Below are positions 40,898 through 53,930 of a stretch of 64,000 nt of DNA, one piece after another. The translations under genes were made by a program, and so were the position numbers. Location: positions 124,001 through 188,000 of the forward strand of contig JACRQG010000007.1 of NCBI GenBank assembly GCA_016222805.1, written 5' to 3'. Numbering within the stretch: the stretch's first letter is position 1; every line of letters starts with the position of its first letter. The DNA comes from Verrucomicrobiota bacterium (GTDB lineage Bacteria > Verrucomicrobiota > Verrucomicrobiia > Opitutales > Opitutaceae). Below the pieces are notes generated by a model, which was not told the origin of the DNA, did no database searches, and saw nothing but the letters and a program-made list of their open reading frames with translations.

Positions 40898-43009
40898 CTA
40901 CGTCAGTGACAGGCGCCGCAGCCGAAGCGCGTTGGCGACGACGGTGATGGAGCTGAGGCTCATCGCCACCCCGGCAAACATCGGGTTGAGCAGCCAGCCG
41001 GTGAAAGGAAACAGGGCTCCGGCCGCGAGCGGCAGGCCGGCCAGATTGTAGGCGAAGGCCCAGAAGAGGTTCTGCTTGATGGTCCGCAGCGTCGCCCGGC
41101 TCAGGTGCACGGCACGCACGAGGGCGGCCAGATCGCCTTGGACGAGCACAAGGCCGGCACTGTGCATCGCCACATCCGTGCCGGTGCCCATGGCGATGCC
41201 GACGTCGGCGGCGGCGAGTGCCGGCGCGTCGTTGAGCCCGTCCCCGGCGAAGACCACCCCGTGCTCGTCCGAGCGATGGCTGCGGACGAGTTCCTGCTTT
41301 TGGGCCGGGGTGACCGCGGCATGGTAGCCGTCCAGCCCGAGCTGGGTGGCCACCGCCCGGGCCGTCGACTCCCGGTCGCCAGTGACCATGATCACCCGGA
41401 ACCCCAGTCGCTGGAGTTCGCGAATCGCCGCCGGGGTGGTGGCCTTGACCTCGTCGGCGAGCGCAATCGTGCCGATTCGTTCTCCCTCGACGGCGACGGC
41501 CACCAGCGTCGCGGTGGCAAATGCTCCGACATCATGGACGGCCCGGGACACCTCCACCAGGCGACCCTCGATCCGCGCACGCACCCCGAATCCGGGCTCC
41601 ACGGCGAAATCGGTCGCGATGGGAAGAGCCAGTCCCCGCTCCTGGGCGGCGCGGACGATTGCGCGGGCGAGAGGATGTTCGCTGGCGGATTCCGCTGCCG
41701 CGGCGTAGGTCAGCAGTTGCGCCTCCCGTGCCGATGCGGCCGGGCTGGAGGCCGGAGTTTCGCCCGTGCCGGAGAGTTCAAGTCCGACCACCCGGGGATG
41801 TCCGGCCGTGAGCGTGCCGGTCTTGTCGATCAGCAGGGTGCGCACCCGGGCAAGGCGCTCAAGGGCAGCGGCGTCCTTGACCAGCACGCCAGCCTGGGCG
41901 CCGCGGCCGATGGCGGTTACCAAGGCGACCGGCGTGGCCAAGCCAAGGGCGCAGGGACAGGCGATGATCAGAACGGCGACGGCGTTGATGAGGCCGAAGA
42001 CCCAGCCGGGTGCCGGCCCGGCGATCGTCCACACCAGGAAGGTGACGGTGGCAATCGCGAGGACGATGGGAACGAACACCGCGGAGACCCGATCGGCGAG
42101 GCGCGCGATCGGCGCTTCGCTTTCTTGGGCTTCCTCGACCAGGCGCACGATCTGCGCGAGCAGGGTGTCGCGGCCAATCCGTTCGGCCCGGAAGGTCAGG
42201 GTCCCGGTGGTGTTCAGGGTGCCCGCATGGACCGGGCTGCCGCTGGCCTTCTCGACCGGCTCAGGCTCACCGGTGAGCATCGATTCATCGACGCTCGTGG
42301 CGCCCTCGAGGACGGAGCCGTCGACCGGGATTTTCTCGCCCGGGCGGACCCGAAGGGTGTCGCCGACCTTCACCTCTGCAACCGGGATGTCGGTTTCGAC
42401 TCCCGTCTGATCGAGGCGGTGGGCGATTTTCGGTGCGAGATCCATCAGCGCCCGGATGGCGAGGTCGGTCCGGGCGTGTGCCCGTTGTTCCAGAATCTGA
42501 CCAAGCAGAACAATCGTGGTGGTGACCGCTGCGGCCTCGAAGTAGAGCGGGACGCCGTGGGCGCTGCGGAACGCCTCCGGAAAGCGCGCGGACAGCAGCA
42601 GGGCCGCGGTGCTGTAGAAGTAGGCGGCCCCGGTGCCGGTCACGGTCAGCGTGAACATGTTGGTGTCACGCTCCCGGATGGAGGTCCACCAGCGCCGGAT
42701 AAACGGGGCGCCACTCCAGAAGAACACCGGCGTGGTCAGCAGGAACTGGAGCCAACCCGACAACTGCGGGTTCACGTGGTGAGCCAGGGAAGGCCAGACC
42801 ATTTCGCCCATGGAAAGGACGAGCACCGGCAGGCTGAGGGCGGTGGCGGCGAAGAACCGCGGTCGAAGGTACCGCTCGTGTGGCAGGCCCATGTAGACCG
42901 GTTCGGAGGCCGACTCCGCTGAGGCGCCGGAGGCCTGGGCTCCATGGTGGTGACCGTGGGCGTGGCCGGGATGGTCGGGAAGAGAAGGAGAAGGGGACGG
43001 TTTCATCAC
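40898..43009 (-). CDS. Copper-translocating P1B-1 ATPase with His-rich N-terminus
   Basis: [12 protein letters not shown]-term; [43 protein letters not shown]-x6-YN-x4-P ([14 protein letters not shown]) and MSLSS signatures of P1B-1. Confidence 0.95.
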
Positions 43010-43251: not shown

Positions 43252-43872
43252 TCACGGGGGCGGAACCCTCGGTCGCCGGGACGCGGATTGCGTAGCCTTC
43301 GCGGTGGTCGCAGGCTGGCGGGGGTTTTCCGGAGGACAATCGCAGTCGAGGCACTTGCCGCGGGCGCATTCCCCGCAGAACTCCAGCAGCTTTCGGCGGA
43401 GTTCCTGCCGAGCGCGGTGGAGGGCGACGCTGGCATGGTTGGGGGTGAGACCGAGTTCGGCCGCTGCCGCCGCCACGGAGGCGCCCTGCCATTCCACCAG
43501 ACGCAGAAGGTGCGCCTGACTGGGCTTCAAAGTGGAGATGACGTGATCGAGACAGGCGCAGACCGCCCGGGCGGCCGTGGCATCGTTTGCAGACAACGCC
43601 ATGAAGTCCTCGGTCCAGGCCTGCTCCCGGCGTCGGGCAGCGGTGCGACTCCTTCGGAAATCCACCGCAGCGCGGCGCAAGATCTGGTAGAACCAGGCGA
43701 CCGCCTTTTCCTCCTCCTTCAGCTCCGGCGCCTGGCGGAGGGCTTTCACCAGCCCGTGCTGCAGCAGGTCATCGGCATCGGCGGCATTGCCGAGGCGGGC
43801 GGCCAGAAAGGATCGAAAGGCCTGGCGTTGCGCCAGCAGTCGACGGGCCAGGGTGGACGCGGAGGCAGGCAT
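43252..43872 (-). CDS. ECF sigma factor with C-terminal Cys-rich tail (CorE-like)
   Basis: AVAWFYQILRRAAVDFRRSRT; VCACLDHVISTLKPSQAHLL; LTPNHASVALHRARQELRRKLLEFCGECARGKCLDCDC; start overlaps upstream stop by 1 nt. Confidence 0.88.
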   Translation of the reverse strand: MPASASTLARRLLAQRQAFRSFLAARLGNAADADDLLQHGLVKALRQAPELKEEEKAVAWFYQILRRAAVDFRRSRTAARRREQAWTEDFMALSANDATAARAVCACLDHVISTLKPSQAHLLRLVEWQGASVAAAAAELGLTPNHASVALHRARQELRRKLLEFCGECARGKCLDCDCPPENPRQPATTAKATQSASRRPRVPPP

Positions 43873-44516
43873 CAGGGGGAGAACCACTGCAAGCCCAGGG
43901 CGAACCACGCGCAGAGGACGAGGCCGCTTCCCAACGCGATGCCTCCCTGCCAGCGCAAACGGGAGCGGAGCAACCAGGAGACGATCCCGGTTCCCACCAG
44001 CGCGATGATCCCGAGCGAGAGCGCGTCCATCGTCCAGACCCAGAGGGAGGTCAGCCACCAATCCCGATCGTTCAAGGAGTCGTTTGCGCGCACGCCCGAA
44101 AAGGTGTGCAGCGCCCGGCTGACGCCCCAGCCATTGACCGTGGTGGTCTGGAGCACCACCCGGCCCGCGCGGAGGTCAGCCTTCACTTCCACCTGCCGGC
44201 CCGGGCGCTGGACCCGGAAATCAAGGCGCGTGGCGTCCGCGGGGGTGACGAGCCAGTGCACCTCGCCGGTCAGCCGGAGCTGGTGCAGGAGGTGCCTGGC
44301 CTGTTCGAGAGGGGAACCCGGCGGCGGAGCGACGACGGCCACCTCGGTCGTTTCCACCCGTCGCTTCGACCAGAACTCGGCGAAGCCCCAGGCGTGGTTC
44401 AGCAGCAGTCCTGTCAGGGCGAACAACCAGAGAGCGAAAAAGAAGTACAGTCCCAGCAGGATGTGGATGCGACGCATCCACGATGTGGCGACACCTTCGG
44501 CTTGTGGGGAGTTCAT
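43872..44516 (-). CDS. PepSY-associated TM protein
   Basis: RRIHILLGLYFFFALWLFALTGLLLNHAW; HTFSGVRANDSLNDRDWWLTSLWVWTMDALSLG. Confidence 0.72.
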   Translation of the reverse strand: MNSPQAEGVATSWMRRIHILLGLYFFFALWLFALTGLLLNHAWGFAEFWSKRRVETTEVAVVAPPPGSPLEQARHLLHQLRLTGEVHWLVTPADATRLDFRVQRPGRQVEVKADLRAGRVVLQTTTVNGWGVSRALHTFSGVRANDSLNDRDWWLTSLWVWTMDALSLGIIALVGTGIVSWLLRSRLRWQGGIALGSGLVLCAWFALGLQWFSP

Positions 44517-45139
44517 CGCACCAGGGCCCCGACCAGGCCGGCCAGGGTGCAGGCTCCGACGGCGAAGAAGATCACGCCGGAGCGGCGCAGGGTGTGAGAC
44601 CACCACCACCAGAGAAGGCCGCTGACGGTGACGCCCAGCACCAGCACGACACTGGCATCAGCCACCCAACGCCAGGCCTGCATGAAGCCGGAGTTGCCAC
44701 GGATCGCGACGTTGTGTGGTCCCGGCATGCGATGCAGGTAGATCAGGGCGTCCGCCAGGCCGGTGCGGCGGGTCGTGAGGTCGGCCGTGCGGGCCTCGAG
44801 GTGCAAATCCACGGTCGTTTCCCGGCCGGGAAGGCTGACGGGCAGGACCATCCGTCGTTCCCGCGGCACGTAGCGCACGTGGCCGATTTCTCCGCTGACC
44901 TGCAGCTGCGCCAGGAGGCCGCGCAGGGCCGTCAGTTGGTCGGCGAGGGGGCGCTTTTCCAGGTCGGGAGGAACGGGGAGATCGGACACGGTTCGCTTCT
45001 CGACGGCGCCGGCGGTGCGCGGCGCCCAGCCGTGAACAAGGAGGATCGCGCTGACGGCGAAGAGCAGGAGCAGGGGACTGACAAAGAGGCCGGCCAGCAC
45101 ATGCAGGTCGCGCACGGTGCGCTGGACGCGGGCGTTCAT
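44513..45139 (-). CDS. PepSY-associated TM protein
   Basis: VQRTVRDLHVLAGLFVSPLLLLFAVSAILLVHGWAP; LHRMPGPHNVAIRGNSGFMQAWRWVADASVVLVLGVTVSGLLWW. Confidence 0.75.
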   Translation of the reverse strand: MNARVQRTVRDLHVLAGLFVSPLLLLFAVSAILLVHGWAPRTAGAVEKRTVSDLPVPPDLEKRPLADQLTALRGLLAQLQVSGEIGHVRYVPRERRMVLPVSLPGRETTVDLHLEARTADLTTRRTGLADALIYLHRMPGPHNVAIRGNSGFMQAWRWVADASVVLVLGVTVSGLLWWWWSHTLRRSGVIFFAVGACTLAGLVGALVR

Positions 45140-48100
45140 GCGGATTCCGGCGCAACGATGGCTGGGCCCGGCGGGACGGGTTGCGTTGCGGGGGCGCGGG
45201 CGAGCTTCCTCTCCCAGTACCAGGTGAAGAAGACCGGCACCGAAAAAAGCGACACGACGTCGAAGAGCATCCCGCCGACGACGGGAAGGACCATGGGCTG
45301 CATGAGCTCGGACCCGCGCCCGGTCGACCACAGGACGGGAATGAGGGAGAGCATCGTGGTGGCGTTGGTCATGATGGCCGGCCGGCGGCGGCGAAGACCG
45401 GCGTAGAAGACGCGCCGGTGGACCTCGGCGACGTCGCGTGGCGGTGTCTTGAACTGCTCCTGGATATAGGTGCCGAGGAGGATGCCATCGTTGAACATCA
45501 CGCCGAGCAGGACAATGAAGCCGACGATCACGGCCGTGGTCATCTCCGCTCCCCACCACCAGACGAAGAAGAAGCCCCCGGCAGTGGTGACACTGGCGTT
45601 GCAGAGGATGATGATACTGGTGATCAGCCAGGAGCGCGTGCCGACGTAGATCAGGACCACCATCACCGCCATCGAGGCGGCGATGATCCAGCGCAGTGCC
45701 TCATCGGCCTTCAACTTCTGCTCGTAGCGGCCCACCCAGCGGTACGTGGCGCCGGGCGGCAGGGTGAGCCGGCCGTCGGCGAGCGCGGCGCGCAGCCGGG
45801 CCTCGGCGTCCTGCACCACCTCGACTTCCCCGCGACCGCGGGCATTCAGGAGCACGTACTGGGTGCGTTTGCCGCCTTCGGAGCGGATGGCCATCGGCCC
45901 AATCGTATAGGTCAGACCCGCTTCACTGGGACGCTGGTCGACGACCGAGAGCGAAAGCGTGGGGGTGAGGGCGAAGGTGAGGCCCGTGCGGCCGGGCGGT
46001 GACGGGCGAGCCGAAGGGGCAAAGGGCAGCGGATCACCGGCCGGGATGGTCAGTTCGGCGCGGGTCGGCGAGAGGATTGTCAGGTTGCGTTGGTGAGCCA
46101 GCGGCAGGGCAGCCAGCAAGGCGGCGGTATCCGAGGTCTCGAGGGTATACACCGTCGGCGTTGCGAGCAGGTTCCAGAGGGGAATGGCGCCCATGCCGGA
46201 TGTGACCGGCACCCGCAGTTGGATCCACTCATCGGCGTCGTCCCGACGTTCGCGGAGGTAGCGGATCCGCACGGGATACCGCAGCGCGCCCTCGACGGAG
46301 TAGGTCACTGCCATGCCGCCGAGAGCACTTTCGACGGCGCGCATCACCTGCTCGTTGGTGAGCCCGAACCGCGCGAGTTTCTCCGGTTCAAGCCGGATTT
46401 CGGCGTAGGGCTTTCCGCCTTCGCGCTGCATCTGCACGTCCGCAGCACCCGGCGTGGGCTGAATGATCTTCTCGGCCGCCTCGGCAAAGCGCTCCAGGGC
46501 GTCCGAGTCGTCGCCGAGCACCTGCAGGGCAATAAGGCTGCGGATGCCGGTGGAGAGCATCACGACGCGCGTCTCGATCGGTTGAAGCCAGCTCGGGGCC
46601 ACGCCGGGAATGTCGGTGATGGCCGCGAGGGCGCCGCGCACCTCGGCCAGCGTGCGTGGGCGGCGCTCGGTGGTGCCGTCGTCGCGGCTGAAGTCATGGG
46701 TCGGCCATGCGGCATACGGCTTCAGGAGGACGACGGTCTCGATCATGCCGATCGGAGCGGGGTCCAGGGCGGTTTCCGCCCGTCCCATCTTGCCCATCAC
46801 TCCGGCCACCTCGGGGATCGATTCAATCCGCCGGTTCTGTTCCAGCATGATCCGCTGCGTTTCGCCGAGGCCACCCGTCGCCGGGATCGAGGGCATGAAC
46901 AGCAGGCTGCCTTCGTCGAGCGGCGGCAGGAAACTCGACCCCACCCCGGGAAACCAGCGGGTCATCGCCTGATCGAGGCGAGTCGTCGCGAGATCTCCTC
47001 CGGCGGCGGCGATGACGTGCCGCAACGGTGCACTCAACGTCTGCCAGCCGAGGCCCAGCAGGTAACCGCCGCCGGCGAGAATGCTGATGGCGAGCGTAAA
47101 GGCGACCTTGTGGCGCTGGATGCGCTGGTAGGCCCACTCGTAGGCGACGTGGATCGCGTGGCTGGCCGGATTTTCCTCATAATTGACCAACTCCTCGCGC
47201 CCCAGCCGCCAGACGGTGAAGGCGACAAGTCCGCCGAAGATCGGCGCAAACAACCAGCCCGGTACGGTCACGGCCCAGCGCCCATAATCCATCGGGAGGC
47301 TCCAGCCATCGCGGAGGAACCAGCCGAACGCCAAGCCCCCCGCCAGGCCTGCGAGGCACACCAGAAGGCCGCGACGCAGGTGCCACGGCGGGAGCAACAG
47401 GCGGCAGAGCACCGGCACCAGGAAGACCCCGAAGAGCACCGCGCCGCTGATCGCCAGGGATTTGGTGAGCGCGAGAGGTTCGAAGAGACGGCCGGCCTGA
47501 TCCTGCAGGGCGAAAATGGGCAGGAAGCCGATGACCGTGGTGGCCGCCGAGGTCAGCAACGGCCGGGCGACTTCCTCCGCGGCGGTGACCACGGCGGCGG
47601 TGATTTCGGGATCGAACGGCGAGGTGGGCATCGGGCGTCCCTCGCGCCGGCACCTGGCCTGCAGATCCACCAGGTGCTGGGTGATGTTTTCGGTCATGAT
47701 GATGCCGAAATCGACCATCACGCCGACGGCGATCGCGATGCCCGCGAGGCTCATGATGTTCGCCCCGACACCGACTCCCCACATCACCAAGAACGTGAAG
47801 AGCATCCCGAGGGGCAGGCTGATGGCGACCGCCAGGCTGGCGCGGACGTGGAGGAGAAACGCCACGACCACGACGACCGTGGTGACCACGGCTTCGACCA
47901 GGGTCGAAGACAGCGTCGCGGTCGTCTCCTGGATCAGCTGGGAACGATCGTAGAAAGGCACCGCGGAAATCTGTTCGCGGGCGAGCGTGGGACCGAGGTC
48001 GGCGAGCCGCCGCTTAACGGCGTTGATGACGGTCTTGGGGTCCTCGCGGACGCGCATGCCGACGATGGCACCGACATGCTCCTGATGGCCGTCGGCGAGA

Positions 48101-49038
48101 AGCCCCTGGCGAAACTGTCCGCCGAGCCGAACCTGGGCGACGTCGCCCAGGCGGAGTCCGGCACCCTTGGCCCGACTGCCCCGGAGGATGATGTTCTCGA
48201 CATCGCTCACCGAGCGGAGGAAGCCCACGCCGCGGATCATTGTTTCCACGCCGCTCTGCTCGACGCTCATCGCCCCGACGTCGCGCCCGGCTTGCTGCAC
48301 CGCCATCATCAGCATGTCGAGCGTCAGCCCCTGCGCCTCCAGGCGGTTGGGATCGACATCGATTTGGTACTCGCGCACGACTCCGCCGGCCGGGGCCACT
48401 TCGGCCACTCCGGGAACGGCCCGCAGGGCTGGCACCACGACCTGATCCAAGAGGTAGCGTTTCGACTCCGGATCGCGCGGTCCCTGCAGGGTAAAGGCGT
48501 AAACCTGGCCCATGGCCGTGGCGTCGGGACCGAGCCGTGGGTTCACCCCGGCGGGCAGCAGACCCTGGACTTGGGACAGTCGTTCAAGGACGCGCGTGCG
48601 GCACTCGTACAGATCGCGCCGCTCGTCGAAGATGACGTAGAGGTAGCTGGCTCCATAGAGGGACATGCCCCGCACCGTTTGGACGCCGGGAAGTCCCTGC
48701 AGTTCGCGCGCGAGTCGGGAAGTCACCTGCTGGTCCATGTCCTGCGGGCTCTTGCCCGGCCACTCCGCCCAGACGATTACCTGGTTGTCGCTAAGATCGG
48801 GGATGGCATCGACCGGGACGTGCCGCCACGCCCAAAAGCCTGCGAGCGCCAGGGCAAACGCGGAGGCGAGGGTGAGAAACGGATTGCGGATGGCGAACGA
48901 GAGCACGTGAAAGACGAAGAACAGGTGGACGTGGGTCCAATCAGGCTCGCTGAGCCACGTTTGTGAGGGCGGTGCGACTTTGCCCGGTTGGTACCGCTCC
49001 ACGCGGGTCCATTTTCGGGGCGAGGGCGCCCCGCCCAC
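45136..49038 (-). CDS. Heavy-metal RND efflux permease (CusA-like; exact start uncertain)
   Basis: [105 protein letters not shown]. Confidence 0.94.
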   Translation of the reverse strand: [1300 protein letters not shown]

Positions 49039-49079: not shown

Positions 49080-50405
49080 CTAGTGGGAGTGGCCGGACGC
49101 CGGGGCGGCGGCGCCGCGGGTGAAGAGGAGGCTCGCCGTGCCGGCGAGCTGGGCCTGGGCGTCAATCAGGAACGCGCCCTGGGCGGCCACTTCGTCTCCG
49201 GGGCGCAGGCCGGCGCGGACGACCAGCAGGTCTTGTCCCGCTTCGCTCTCCAGGCGCGGCCCAAGGGCGAGTGGGACGAGTTCGAAGCGCAGCCTTCCGT
49301 CGGTCAGACGTTCGGCGACGCGCCAGGCCACGTGGCGAACCCCGGTGGACAACACCGCGGCCTTCGGGACGAGCGTGAAGGTGCCTGCGGCTCCGGCGAG
49401 CGAAGGATCAACCGGGTTGCCGTCGGCACCGAGGGCAGCGGCGAGGCGGGCCTGGACGAGACTGCCGGCCAGCAGGCGGCGGGCAGGATCCTGGAGATGC
49501 AGATGGACCTCACGGGATCGGAGCTCGGCGTTCAATTCCGGTGAGATCCAGGAGATGGAGGCGGTCACTTCCGGCAGCTCCCCGCGGTCGTCGGAGGCCA
49601 GGTGGGCGGGTTGCCCCACTCGCAGCCAGTGCGCGCGCGCCTCCGGCACTTGCAGGGTGATCATGAACGACCGTGGCTCGACCAGCCGAAGGAGGACCGT
49701 ATCGGCCATGACCTCCTGTCCAACTTGGGGCAAACGGGTGGCATCCATGGTGCCGCCCTCGGGACCTGGCACCACGAGTCCGGAAAAGGGCGTGGTGAGG
49801 GTGAGGGTGTCGACCGGTGCCTTGCCTTCCACAATCGCGGCCGCGACGGCCGCGAGGTTCCAGCGCATGAACCGTTCGACCAGGGCGTGGATCGTGTGGG
49901 CATCGCCCAGTTTCACGGCGGCGGCCAGTTCGCCCTGGGCGGCAAAGGCCTCCGGGCTGTAGAGATCGACCACGGGGGCGCCCGCGCTGACCTCGGTGCC
50001 GAAATGGAGGGCGGCCGGGTGGCGGCGCACGATGCGCCCGGGAACACGGGGGACGACAACCTGCAGGGTCCGGTCGTCATAGCGCACCGTGCCGTAGGCC
50101 CGGAGGGTGGCCACGGCGGGACCGGAGCTCACTCGCACCAACTCCACGCCCATGCGGCGCTGCTGCTCCCGCGTCAGCTCACCCGCGGTGACCTTGGTCA
50201 TCTTCATTCCGCAGACGGGGCAATCGCCGGGTTTGTTGCCGATGAAGTCCATCATCGGGCACGCGTAACGCGCTCCCGTGACCGCAGCATCCTCGGATGC
50301 GTGGTCGGCATGCGGCGCAAAGAGCGTTTGCTCCGGCAGGGTCAGAATGAGCACGGCTCCCGCGGTGAGACCGACCGTGGCGGTCATCCAGTTGGTCCAG
50401 CGCAT
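49080..50405 (-). CDS. RND periplasmic adaptor with heavy-metal-binding domain (CusB-like)
   Basis: YACPMMDFIGNKPGDCPVCGMKMTKV; GRIVRRHPAALHFGTEVSAGAPVVDLYSPEAFAAQGELAAA. Confidence 0.92.
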   Translation of the reverse strand: MRWTNWMTATVGLTAGAVLILTLPEQTLFAPHADHASEDAAVTGARYACPMMDFIGNKPGDCPVCGMKMTKVTAGELTREQQRRMGVELVRVSSGPAVATLRAYGTVRYDDRTLQVVVPRVPGRIVRRHPAALHFGTEVSAGAPVVDLYSPEAFAAQGELAAAVKLGDAHTIHALVERFMRWNLAAVAAAIVEGKAPVDTLTLTTPFSGLVVPGPEGGTMDATRLPQVGQEVMADTVLLRLVEPRSFMITLQVPEARAHWLRVGQPAHLASDDRGELPEVTASISWISPELNAELRSREVHLHLQDPARRLLAGSLVQARLAAALGADGNPVDPSLAGAAGTFTLVPKAAVLSTGVRHVAWRVAERLTDGRLRFELVPLALGPRLESEAGQDLLVVRAGLRPGDEVAAQGAFLIDAQAQLAGTASLLFTRGAAAPASGHSH

Positions 50406-50414
50406 GGCGGGTAT

Positions 50415-50792
50415 TCAGCGGCTGAGGACTTCGTTCCGCAGGTAAAGCGGACCGTATTTTTCAGGCTCCGCCTTGAACTTCGGCGGGCACATCTTGCAGC
50501 CAAATCCGATGGTCTTGCCCTGGTAGGTCGCCGTGGGGAGCTTCGGATCGACCGGCATTCCGCAGATGGCACAGACGGTGTTGACAGGTGTGGCCGAGGT
50601 AGGGGAGGTGGAGGGGACAGCCGAACTGGCGTGCCCCGCGTGGTCGGGAGCGGTCGCCGCCTGGGTCCGGGACTCGGGCGCGGGAACGTCCGCGGCTTTC
50701 CCGTGCGGTTGGTGCCGGGCGGTCCGGGCGCCGAGGGCAAGCAAGGCGCCCACGAGAAAGGTACCGAGGAAGAGGAAGACGTGTCGGGTCAT
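50415..50792 (-). CDS. Secreted YHS/TRASH-like metal-binding protein
   Basis: VCAICGMPVDPKLPTATYQGKTIGFGCKMCPPKFKAEPEKYG; His-containing linker. Confidence 0.78.
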   Translation of the reverse strand: MTRHVFLFLGTFLVGALLALGARTARHQPHGKAADVPAPESRTQAATAPDHAGHASSAVPSTSPTSATPVNTVCAICGMPVDPKLPTATYQGKTIGFGCKMCPPKFKAEPEKYGPLYLRNEVLSR

Positions 50793-50813: not shown

Positions 50814-52055
50814 TTAGTGCGCCAGGCGGAGTATCCGGACGGCGGGGACATGTCTCCAGAGTTCCGCGCGTGCCACTCGCACGGCGATCTCGGCCTCGAT
50901 GATTTGCATCTGGAGTTCGGTGGACTTGTCGAGGATGTCGATGGCGTGCAGCACGGCGGAGTCCCCGCCCATTCCGGCGGCGGCGCCGGCGCTGATGGCG
51001 CGGTTGAGCGAGTCATGCTCGGCGTCGAGGCGGGCCTGGGTGTCGGCGGCGAGCCGGCGCGCCGTGGCCGCCACGCGTTCCGCGCGTTCCACCCGGCTGA
51101 TCACGCCGGTCGTTCGGTGCCGGGCGGCGTCGGCGTCGGATTGGGCGGCAGTCCGGGCCAGCTCGGCGGCCCGGCTTTCGGCCCGGGCATACCGGCGGGT
51201 GCGCCAGGGGATTTCAGACGAGACGGCCAGGCCGACGGTGTCCTGGTTGCCCATGCTGCTGCGTTCCCGTTCAAAGCGCAGCCCGACCGCAGTCATCGGG
51301 TTGGCGCTGGCGCGGGCCATCCGCCCCATGGCGTTGGCTTCGGCGACCCGGGCCGAGGCGAGGGCGACGGAGGAGGTTTCCGCCGGCCTGATATCGATGA
51401 CTGCGGGGGCGGAAAAGGCCGGGAGGCCGTTCGCCGGATCCAAGCCGATGCGGCTGCGGGCCTCGGCCCGCGCGTTTTCCGCCGTGCGTCGGACCTCCGC
51501 CACGGCAAGTTGCAGGGAAGCCAGGCGTGACTGCACGGTCAGACGGTCGGCCACGCGGGCCGGAAGCCCGGAAGCCAGGCGGGTGTCCAGGCTTTGCAGA
51601 GCGGCGGCGAGCCGGCCGATCTGCTGTTCGAGGAGGCGGGCCTTTTCATCTGCGCCGTCGGCCTCGGCGAGCGCCATGGCGACGTCAGCGGCGAGGTCGG
51701 CCACGGTCATGGCAAAGTCGGCCTCGGCCATGGTCACACCGGCGGCGGCGCGCTCCCGATCTGCGGCGCGTTCGCCGCGGCGCGGGAGCGGCTGCCGGAG
51801 GGAGACTTCCCACATGTCGCGATTCTCCCCCATTGCGTCGGCGTTGATGCGCGAACCCATCGCTTCCACCTCGGGATCCGCCAGCCGGCCGGAGGCCTCG
51901 ACCCGGACGCGGGCGGAGTCGATGCGACGCCGGGCCGCTTCCGCCGCGGGCGCCCGCGCCACCTCTGTGAGCAGGGGGACGGCGGGCTCCGGCTGCGCGG
52001 GCGCGAGACCGCCGCAGGCGGCGAACAGGGCCCAGGTGATGGCGGGGCGGAACAT
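50814..52055 (-). CDS. TolC family protein (CusC-like)
   Basis: EVSLRQPLPRRGERAADRERAAAGVTMAEADFAMTVADLAADVAMAL; operon context. Confidence 0.85.
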   Translation of the reverse strand: MFRPAITWALFAACGGLAPAQPEPAVPLLTEVARAPAAEAARRRIDSARVRVEASGRLADPEVEAMGSRINADAMGENRDMWEVSLRQPLPRRGERAADRERAAAGVTMAEADFAMTVADLAADVAMALAEADGADEKARLLEQQIGRLAAALQSLDTRLASGLPARVADRLTVQSRLASLQLAVAEVRRTAENARAEARSRIGLDPANGLPAFSAPAVIDIRPAETSSVALASARVAEANAMGRMARASANPMTAVGLRFERERSSMGNQDTVGLAVSSEIPWRTRRYARAESRAAELARTAAQSDADAARHRTTGVISRVERAERVAATARRLAADTQARLDAEHDSLNRAISAGAAAGMGGDSAVLHAIDILDKSTELQMQIIEAEIAVRVARAELWRHVPAVRILRLAH

Positions 52056-52067
52056 GAGACGGCGGAC

Positions 52068-52427
52068 TTACTTGGCCGGGGCGGACTTGGCCTTGGCGGC
52101 GTCGATCTTCTTGAGGAACTTCGCGGGTTCGGCCTTGAAGTCGTCGATGCAGCCTTCGCAGCAGACGAAGATCACGCGGTCGGGCTGCCCGGCTGCCCGG
52201 TAAACATAGCCGGCGGCCTCTCCCATGCTGCCGAGCGGTTCATCCGAGACCAGGCAGGTCTTGAGCGGATAGCTGGCCCGCGCCTTGGCGATAATCTCGG
52301 CGTCGGCGGGGGTGGTGGCCTTCTTTTCGGCGGCGCCGTGGCCGGCGTGTTTGTCCGCCGCGAGGCCGGAGGCGGCCGGGAAGGTCAGGGCGAGAACAGT
52401 GAGGGAGAGGAGGAGGTTGGATTTCAT
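52068..52427 (-). CDS. Small secreted TRASH-like metal-binding protein
   Basis: ADKHAGHGAAEKK; YPLKTCLVSDEPLGSMGEAAGYVYRAAGQPDRVIFVCCEGCIDDFKAEPAKFLKKIDAA. Confidence 0.75.
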   Translation of the reverse strand: MKSNLLLSLTVLALTFPAASGLAADKHAGHGAAEKKATTPADAEIIAKARASYPLKTCLVSDEPLGSMGEAAGYVYRAAGQPDRVIFVCCEGCIDDFKAEPAKFLKKIDAAKAKSAPAK

Positions 52428-52445
52428 GAGGAGAGTTCGGGGGCA

Positions 52446-52509
52446 ATAACCCCGGGCGAAGAAAATCCCTCGGAAAATTTTCTGCGGGATTTTCGCGCGA
52501 GTGGGTTAT
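52446..52509. promoter_or_regulatory. Mirror-symmetric divergent promoter/operator; 34-bp near-palindrome at its core (52461-52494)
   Basis: GGGATTTTC-N9-GGTTAT on the + strand (52486-52509) and identically on the - strand (52469-52446); both centred on 52477.5. Confidence 0.75.
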
Positions 52510-52529
52510 AGTCAGCAGTCCCTCCTTTC

Positions 52530-52835
52530 ATGGATTCACCTCGCTCTCCCGATTCCCTGTCGCGTCTGCTGGCTTCCTGGCGTGTCAACGCGCCGCGCGA
52601 CCCGCTCTTTCGGACGGCGGTGAGGGAGCGACTGCTCGCGAGGGCGGCCAACCCGTCGTGGATCGGCTATGCGCGGCGTCATGCCGCGGGGGTCGGAACC
52701 GCATTGGTGCTGGCCGTCGTGGCCGGCGCGATGACCGGTCATGAGCGGGCCCGGGCCCGGGTTGCGGCAGACAGCGCCCGGCTGGCGGCGGCCTATGTGG
52801 AAGGCCTGGATGCCCGGGCGATGTCGGGACGTTGA
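52530..52835 (+). CDS. Small single-TM protein, putative CnrY-like membrane anti-sigma
   Basis: 101 aa; cytoplasmic-type N-term, TM RHAAGVGTALVLAVVAGAMTG, C-term YVEGLDARAM; first gene of cnrYXH-like order. Confidence 0.6.
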   Translation: MDSPRSPDSLSRLLASWRVNAPRDPLFRTAVRERLLARAANPSWIGYARRHAAGVGTALVLAVVAGAMTGHERARARVAADSARLAAAYVEGLDARAMSGR

Positions 52836-52890: not shown

Positions 52891-53319
52891 ATGAAGAACC
52901 TGCTGATCACGCTCGCGGTGGTGGTGGCGGCCTGTGGGGCCGCCTTCGGCGTTTCCTACCTGGCGGGAGGAAATGCCGAGATGCGGGCGGCCGCCCGGGA
53001 CGGGGATGCCCTAGCCTGGCTGCGGGTCGAGTTCCAGCTCAGCGAGGCCCAGTTCTCCGCGGTGCGGAAGCTGCACGAGGACTTCAGTGTCGAATGCAGC
53101 CGACACTGCGCGGCCATCATGGAGGCCCGGGAGCGGAAGGCGCCGGCGGCCGAGATTGCGACCCTGGAGAAGTACTGCGTCGACCAGATGACGGCTCACT
53201 TCCGGCGCGTGGCGGCCCAGATGGCGCCGGCGCAGGGCGAACGTTACCTGGCGATGATCCTGCCTCGGATTGCAGGTTACGCGCACGAAGGTGCGCCCAA
53301 CGTGCGGGTGGGACCGTGA
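52891..53319 (+). CDS. Periplasmic heavy-metal sensor (CnrX/ZraP-like)
   Basis: N-terminal TM anchor; WLRVEFQLSEAQFSAVRKLHEDFSVECSRHCAAIMEARE...EKYCVDQMTAHFRRVAAQMAPAQGERYLAMILP. Confidence 0.78.
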   Translation: MKNLLITLAVVVAACGAAFGVSYLAGGNAEMRAAARDGDALAWLRVEFQLSEAQFSAVRKLHEDFSVECSRHCAAIMEARERKAPAAEIATLEKYCVDQMTAHFRRVAAQMAPAQGERYLAMILPRIAGYAHEGAPNVRVGP

Positions 53320-53930
53320 GGGCGGAACCGGAGGGTAGTTCCGGGGATGCGGCGGCGGAAGTCGAAGATCGGGCCCTGATGGCGCGCGTCCAGGCCGGTG
53401 ATGAAACCGCCTTCGGCCGGCTAATGGAGCGCTGGGAGTTGCCGGCAAAGGCCGTGATTGGGAGGCTGGTGCTCAACGCCGTCGAGGCGGAGGAGCTGGC
53501 CCACGAGGCCTTCGTGCGGGTGTGGCAGCAGCGGGAGAAGTACCGCCCGGGAGCGGATTTTCGTCCGTGGCTGTTCGCGATTGCCGTCAACCTGGCGCGG
53601 AATCGTCTGCGATGGTGGCGACGGCGCCCGACCGTTTCGTTCGAGGCATGGAGTGAAGCCGAGGGGCGCGGGGGCGGCCAGTCCGACCGGATTCAAGCCT
53701 CGTCCGAAGGAGGCGACGGCCTCGAGGCGAAGGAACGCGCCGAGGCCGTGCGCGACGCGATCGCCGCCCTGCCGGTCGAGCTTCGGGAGGCGATCGTCCT
53801 TTTCGAATACGAGGGAATGGCCCAGGCGGAAATTGCCGCCATCGTGGGAGCCACGCCGAAGGCGGTCGAAACCCGGATTGCGCGGGCGCGCGAGCGCCTG
53901 CGGGTGGCGCTGCGGCGCTGGGAGCGGTAG
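53316..53930 (+). CDS. ECF-family RNA polymerase sigma factor (GTG start, GTGA overlap with sensor gene)
   Basis: ALMARVQAGDETAFGRLMERWELPAKAVIGRL...ELAHEAFVRVWQQREKYRPGADFRPWLFAIAVNLARNRLRW; IVLFEYEGMAQAEIAAIVGATPKAVETRIARARERL. Confidence 0.93.
   Translation: MRAEPEGSSGDAAAEVEDRALMARVQAGDETAFGRLMERWELPAKAVIGRLVLNAVEAEELAHEAFVRVWQQREKYRPGADFRPWLFAIAVNLARNRLRWWRRRPTVSFEAWSEAEGRGGGQSDRIQASSEGGDGLEAKERAEAVRDAIAALPVELREAIVLFEYEGMAQAEIAAIVGATPKAVETRIARARERLRVALRRWER

Follow-up and report, generated by a model that had tools for sequence, protein, structure and literature searches.

Metal-responsive ECF sigma factors have been described in several bacteria. In Cupriavidus metallidurans, the cnrYXHCBAT determinant is transcribed from two promoters, cnrYp and cnrCp, with leaders of 24 and 25 nt (PMC9045368). 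CorE of Myxococcus xanthus is a copper-dependent ECF sigma factor with no linked anti-sigma factor, which senses copper via its own Cys-rich domain; a CorE-type protein has also been reported in Opitutus terrae (PMC3107203). For sigma-F of Caulobacter crescentus the promoter motif GTAACC-N16-CGAA has been given (PMC3511200). ECF promoters frequently carry AAC in the −35 element and CGT in the −10 element, although the newer classification drops this requirement (PMC8103513).

The locus analysed here lies in the 64-kb window (the whole stretch of DNA under study) and comprises a predicted sensor cassette and a divergent metal-efflux operon separated by a symmetric 64-bp element. With a probability of about 85 % this element constitutes two complete ECF-sigma promoters set back to back and read by one sigma factor, for which both the start sites and the recognition are predicted.

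The symmetric block and its flanking genes

Inspection of the sequence confirmed the 34-bp near-palindrome with two mismatched pairs reported in the first-pass annotation, at positions 52461-52494, as well as the equally spaced GGGATTTTC-N9-GGTTAT pattern on each strand (52486-52509 on the plus and 52469-52446 on the minus strand), both arms having the common centre 52477.5. The start codons are located at 52530 (+) and 52427 (−), with 20 and 18 intervening nt, respectively; the previously listed 21 and 19 nt are right as position differences. When the 64-kb window was scanned, 52477.5 was the sole centre with at least 15 of 17 pairs. The exact GGGATTTTC-N9-GGTTAT pattern was found twice in the 7.9-Mb genome, both times at 52477.5 and in facing orientation, with no control matches, in comparison to 0.002 copies of the 24-mer pattern expected genome-wide (iid estimate). 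Allowing up to three mismatches yielded only two further matches in the whole genome (three for the reversed control), and the pattern search for a wider regulon in this genome gave nothing above the control level apart from the two arms at 52477.5.

A position weight matrix (PWM) derived from 70 relatives places the cassette-side promoter at 52483-52510 (+), with the −35 element TGCGGGATTT at 52483-52492 and the −10 element GGTTATA at 52504-52510 (34.8 bits), and the efflux-side promoter at 52445-52472 (−), with the −35 element CGAGGGATTT at 52472-52463 and the −10 element GGTTATT at 52451-52445 (27.9 bits). The cassette-side arm is one of only two sites of at least 13 bits in a PWM scan of the window. 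GGGATTTTC, originally proposed as the −35 element, proved to be only the 3' part of the longer conserved TGMGGGATTT, and the −35 elements do not overlap as had been supposed, since the 10-bp A/T-rich core GAAAATTTTC (52473-52482) lies between them. This core forms an upstream T-tract common to both promoters and could have an UP-like role; PWM positions −8 to −3 are conserved as T-rich. The predicted start sites, at about 52516 and 52439, lie approximately 78 bp apart, and each would be placed some 10-15 nt upstream of a start codon. The bases that follow the −10 core differ between the two sides (52504-52511 and 52451-52444 here, and in the relatives), being mostly TATAG on the cassette side and often TATTG, TAGTG or TATGA on the efflux side. 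This difference possibly sets unequal strength of the two arms.

The plus-strand cassette starts with an orf of the conserved family A1 (52530-52835) for a CnrY-like single-pass membrane protein of 101 aa, predicted to be the anti-sigma factor from the gene order and its one hydrophobic stretch. It is followed by the gene for a predicted CnrX-like periplasmic sensor of 142 aa (52891-53319, +), recognized by alignments and a sub-threshold match to Pfam Metal_resist, with the invariant residues C69, H72, C73, C96, H103, M111 and H132 in the alignments and an all-helical structure model. The third gene (53316-53930, +) encodes an ECF sigma factor of 204 aa with Pfam Sigma70_r2 and Sigma70_r4_2 above the cut-off, the predicted reader of both promoters.

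On the minus strand the efflux operon opens with P119, a secreted Cys-rich protein (52068-52427, orf of the conserved family A3), followed by a TolC-like outer-membrane factor (50814-52055, Pfam OEP), a YHS-like periplasmic protein (50415-50792, Pfam YHS, sub-threshold), a CusB-type adaptor with a heavy-metal-binding domain (49080-50405, Pfam HlyD_D23 and HMBD), a CusA/CzcA-family RND pump (45136-49038, NCBIfam TIGR00914 above the cut-off; its start may lie downstream) and two PepSY_TM-like membrane proteins (43875-45139, Pfam). The last gene of this minus-strand run (43252-43872) encodes a second ECF sigma factor, CorE-like, with the Cys-rich C-terminal tail CGECARGKCLDCDC (Pfam, NCBIfam SigZ-like). 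Just downstream of it, the region 40898-43009 (−) appears to encode a metal ATPase of P1B type whose N-terminus is His-rich. The metal is most likely Cu or Ag, judging from the invariant sensor residues, the CusA-type pump, the HMBD adaptor, the PepSY proteins and the nearby P1B-type-like ATPase.

By analogy with Cnr and established ECF biology, the CnrX-like sensor and the CnrY-like anti-sigma factor would keep the cassette sigma factor (53316-53930) inactive until excess periplasmic metal, probably Cu or Ag, led to its release. The freed sigma factor would drive transcription of its own cassette, in a positive feedback, and of the divergent CusABC-type efflux operon. The sequence evidence supports such co-regulation of the cassette and the efflux operon; if the twin-promoter reading is true, the alarm (the sensor genes) and the pump would be switched on together.

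The element in related cassettes

The scan of related genomes proposed in the first-pass annotation was carried out with the exact pattern in 194 genomes of the order and gave few matches, among them one in G040, a member of the same family with the same divergent layout. The relaxed pattern gave 33 matches in 250 family genomes versus 4 for the reversed control; about two thirds lie upstream of genes for CnrY-like or secreted Cys-rich proteins and the remainder look like chance. A search with the CnrY-like profile was positive in 153 of the 250 family genomes, and the positives in a phylum sample fell mostly in the same family. The named relatives belong to Opitutaceae or Opitutia and nearly all come from lake, groundwater and other metagenome assemblies.

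Seventy cassettes with a strong CnrY-like hit were used for iterative motif fitting. The fitted motif, AATTTTTTGAGGGATTTT-N9-GGKKTATAG, was placed in 69 of them in the last round, and its core form, TTTTTTGAGGGATTTT-N9-GGKKTATA, was present at all 70, each time above the 1 % shuffle threshold of the core matrix. The consensus comprises the −35 box TGMGGGATTT and the −10 box GGKKTATA, and the spacing between them is rigid, being the same in 64/70 cassettes when it was left free. In 69/70 cassettes the −10 box is located 8-25 nt upstream of the start codon. Downstream of the CnrY-like gene a CnrX-like gene was found in 69/70 and an ECF gene in 67/70 cassettes; two of the three lacking the latter end prematurely at contig or locus edges.

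A second copy of the element, on the opposite strand and within 220 nt, accompanies 59 of the 70 cassettes at a threshold of 1 % false positives in dinucleotide shuffles. Efflux genes were found downstream of the second arm in most of 43 named loci. Where readable, the first gene behind this arm usually encodes the Cys-rich P119, and otherwise a TolC-like outer-membrane factor, a CusB-type adaptor or a small secreted Cys-containing protein, in a survey based on automatic orf choices, a few of them clearly out of frame. The element at 70/70 cassettes and its second copy at 59/70, as raw counts that ignore relatedness, support the original suggestion of twin promoters for one ECF sigma factor, probably that encoded at 53316.

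The element also occurs near CnrX-like/ECF genes in the distant relatives L167-L169. The distant cassettes L168 and L169 (Limisphaerales among them) carry one copy on each strand, some 450 bp from one another, which suggests an origin of the promoter code before that of the family. L066, L070, L071 and L081, apparently a paralogous cassette group with weaker CnrY-like hits, seem to have a related promoter upstream, with the −35 element GAGGGTTT and the −10 element GTAT or GTAA.

The motif provides a promoter code, valid across the family, for a group of metal-sensing ECF sigma factors that seems to be uncharacterised, with a −35 element departing from the usual AAC, and it lets the regulon be called in unculturable lake and groundwater genomes. 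No literature on the Opitutaceae cassette sigma factor was found among open-access papers.

Arm spacing and the sigma factor reading the arms

Divergent metal-resistance operons often have palindromic operators, and the 34-bp near-perfect dyad could in principle be an operator for a dimeric metal regulator, with the promoters located elsewhere or overlapping it. We regard this as very improbable, since the distance between the half-sites is not fixed but varies from 13 to 126 bp, lone arms occur (L227, L236), and every arm has the rigid two-box structure and a promoter-like distance to its own start codon. The dyad itself is explained by two identical −35 elements together with their T-tracts. 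The palindromic operator was rejected on the variable arm spacing and the lone arms.

The distances between the two GGG starts fall into the ranges 13-17, 26-30, 36-40 and 51-126 bp, with the internal spacing of each arm fixed; this range and the lone arms mark the two arms as separable promoters. The 13-17 bp class holds 34 of 62 twins and none of the 62 falls at 18-25 bp; few independent origins stand behind these clusters, the 26-30 bp class appearing in at least three places on the ECF tree. Lineages with relaxed spacing have mostly 26-30 or at least 36 bp. Arms of the same locus are identical at −10 positions 19-20 in 31 of 59 cases versus 15.0 expected, a value reached in 0 of 2000 shuffles (raw counts, relatedness ignored), and three spacer positions tested showed no excess agreement between same-locus arms.

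Since the predicted starts are so close, simultaneous occupation of the block by two polymerases is doubtful, and polymerases at the two arms may compete instead of firing in lockstep as the first-pass annotation supposed. A more far-reaching and rather speculative proposal, which we consider unlikely, is that the tight back-to-back spacing is itself selected: two holoenzymes could not be accommodated together, leaving the sensor cassette and the pump operon in competition for each activated sigma factor. Because the facing copies occur at several natural distances, the set lends itself to testing whether ECF promoters placed back to back help one another, act independently or compete.

The variable distance between arms with a fixed interior, the single arms, the shared variants and the rarity of the element away from the cassette all argue for two ECF promoters. 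The −10 box contains TATA, the T-tract a partial TTGA, and the arms may be aligned as TTGAGG-N19-TATAGT; a 19-bp spacing is known from MerR-family promoters. It is nevertheless hardly credible that these are poorly spaced housekeeping-sigma promoters activated by an unlinked MerR-type regulator: the strongest conservation falls outside the hexamers (GATTT after TTGAGG and GG before KKTAT), the spacer is mostly unconserved, its consensus contains no dyad, and the element tracks the ECF cassette.

The element stands before the cassette encoding this ECF sigma factor in 70/70 relatives. As a control, 40 P119 genes that have no cassette next to them were inspected, and only 3 carry the element. 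Two of these three are lone arms, with a cassette some 9.5 kb away on their contig, and the third belongs to G404, a genome without a CnrY-like hit, where it is placed beside a CorE-like ECF gene. This twin-like element (L218/L269) scores 19.0 and 11.7 bits and lies between P119 and the gene for a 180-aa helical periplasmic protein.

The G404 arrangement, with the element between P119 and the neighbour of the CorE-like ECF gene, and the location of the CorE-like gene (43252-43872) in the minus-strand efflux run speak for reading of the twin promoters by the CorE-like sigma factor, or by both sigma factors. This is nonetheless improbable, as 53 of the 70 element-bearing cassettes are in genomes without a CorE-like hit (1e-25), just one CorE-like locus out of 30, searched mostly over some 1.5 kb on each side, had a clear copy of the element, and G235, with three CorE-like ECF genes, lacks the element at its P119 genes. 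Relatives of the CorE-like ECF were found in 49 of 250 family genomes. Because no CorE-like ECF was detected in most of the genomes that bear the element, it was ruled out as the general reader, although it may take part in reading where it occurs. A CorE-like gene is divergent from a CnrY-like gene in G221, G405, G196 and G392.

The sigma factor encoded at 53316-53930 is the best-supported candidate, and probably reads both arms, as the presence of the element tracks the adjacent cassette and not the other ECF gene of the locus. The covariation test of sigma residues versus promoter bases had few independent changes to draw on in this set.

Comparison with known systems

The cassette sigma factor has the sigma2 and sigma4 domains that define ECF (group IV) proteins, and a predicted promoter of its own, as expected for ECF autoregulation, precedes the cassette in 70/70 relatives. 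The AAC (−35) and CGT (−10) hallmark is missing from the element, which has TGMGGGATTT and GGKKTATA instead.

The first-pass annotation described the cassette as cnrYXH-like and its sigma factor as CnrH-like, which holds for the gene layout and not detectably for the sequences, generic ECF likeness aside. No significant sequence match between the CnrX-like sensor and CnrX was detected, Pfam Metal_resist stayed below the cut-off, and CnrX entries recurred in the fold search with E values of 2.7-7 only. The profile of the CnrY-like protein retrieved no CnrY from the PDB set and the protein has no Pfam match, remote homology being possible. Among solved structures the 53316 sigma factor matched CnrH (4cxf, 6.4e-19) behind 6in7 (sigma-H), 8z6g and E. 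coli RpoE. On present evidence, the sensor, anti-sigma factor and promoter are not assignable to Cnr, though the system would work like CnrYXH.

Like CnrYXH, the cassette has the order membrane anti-sigma factor (predicted here), periplasmic sensor and ECF sigma factor, and the sigma factor is predicted to act at two promoters, one for its own cassette and one for an RND efflux operon. Unlike in Cnr, with its two separate promoters in cnrYXHCBAT, the cassette and efflux genes diverge here from one symmetric block, and the sensor is Cys-rich, pointing to Cu or Ag rather than the Ni and Co of Cnr. The system resembles CorE in the probable ECF control of copper genes, and a CorE-like ECF gene closes the present efflux operon, so that sensing of metal in the periplasm and in the cytoplasm may be linked in series; the 53316 sigma factor, unlike CorE, has no Cys-rich C-terminal tail. 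The sigma-F regulon is likewise a small ECF regulon for metal stress in which nearly identical promoters precede the sigma operon and the target genes, whereas its promoter motif and gene set are different.
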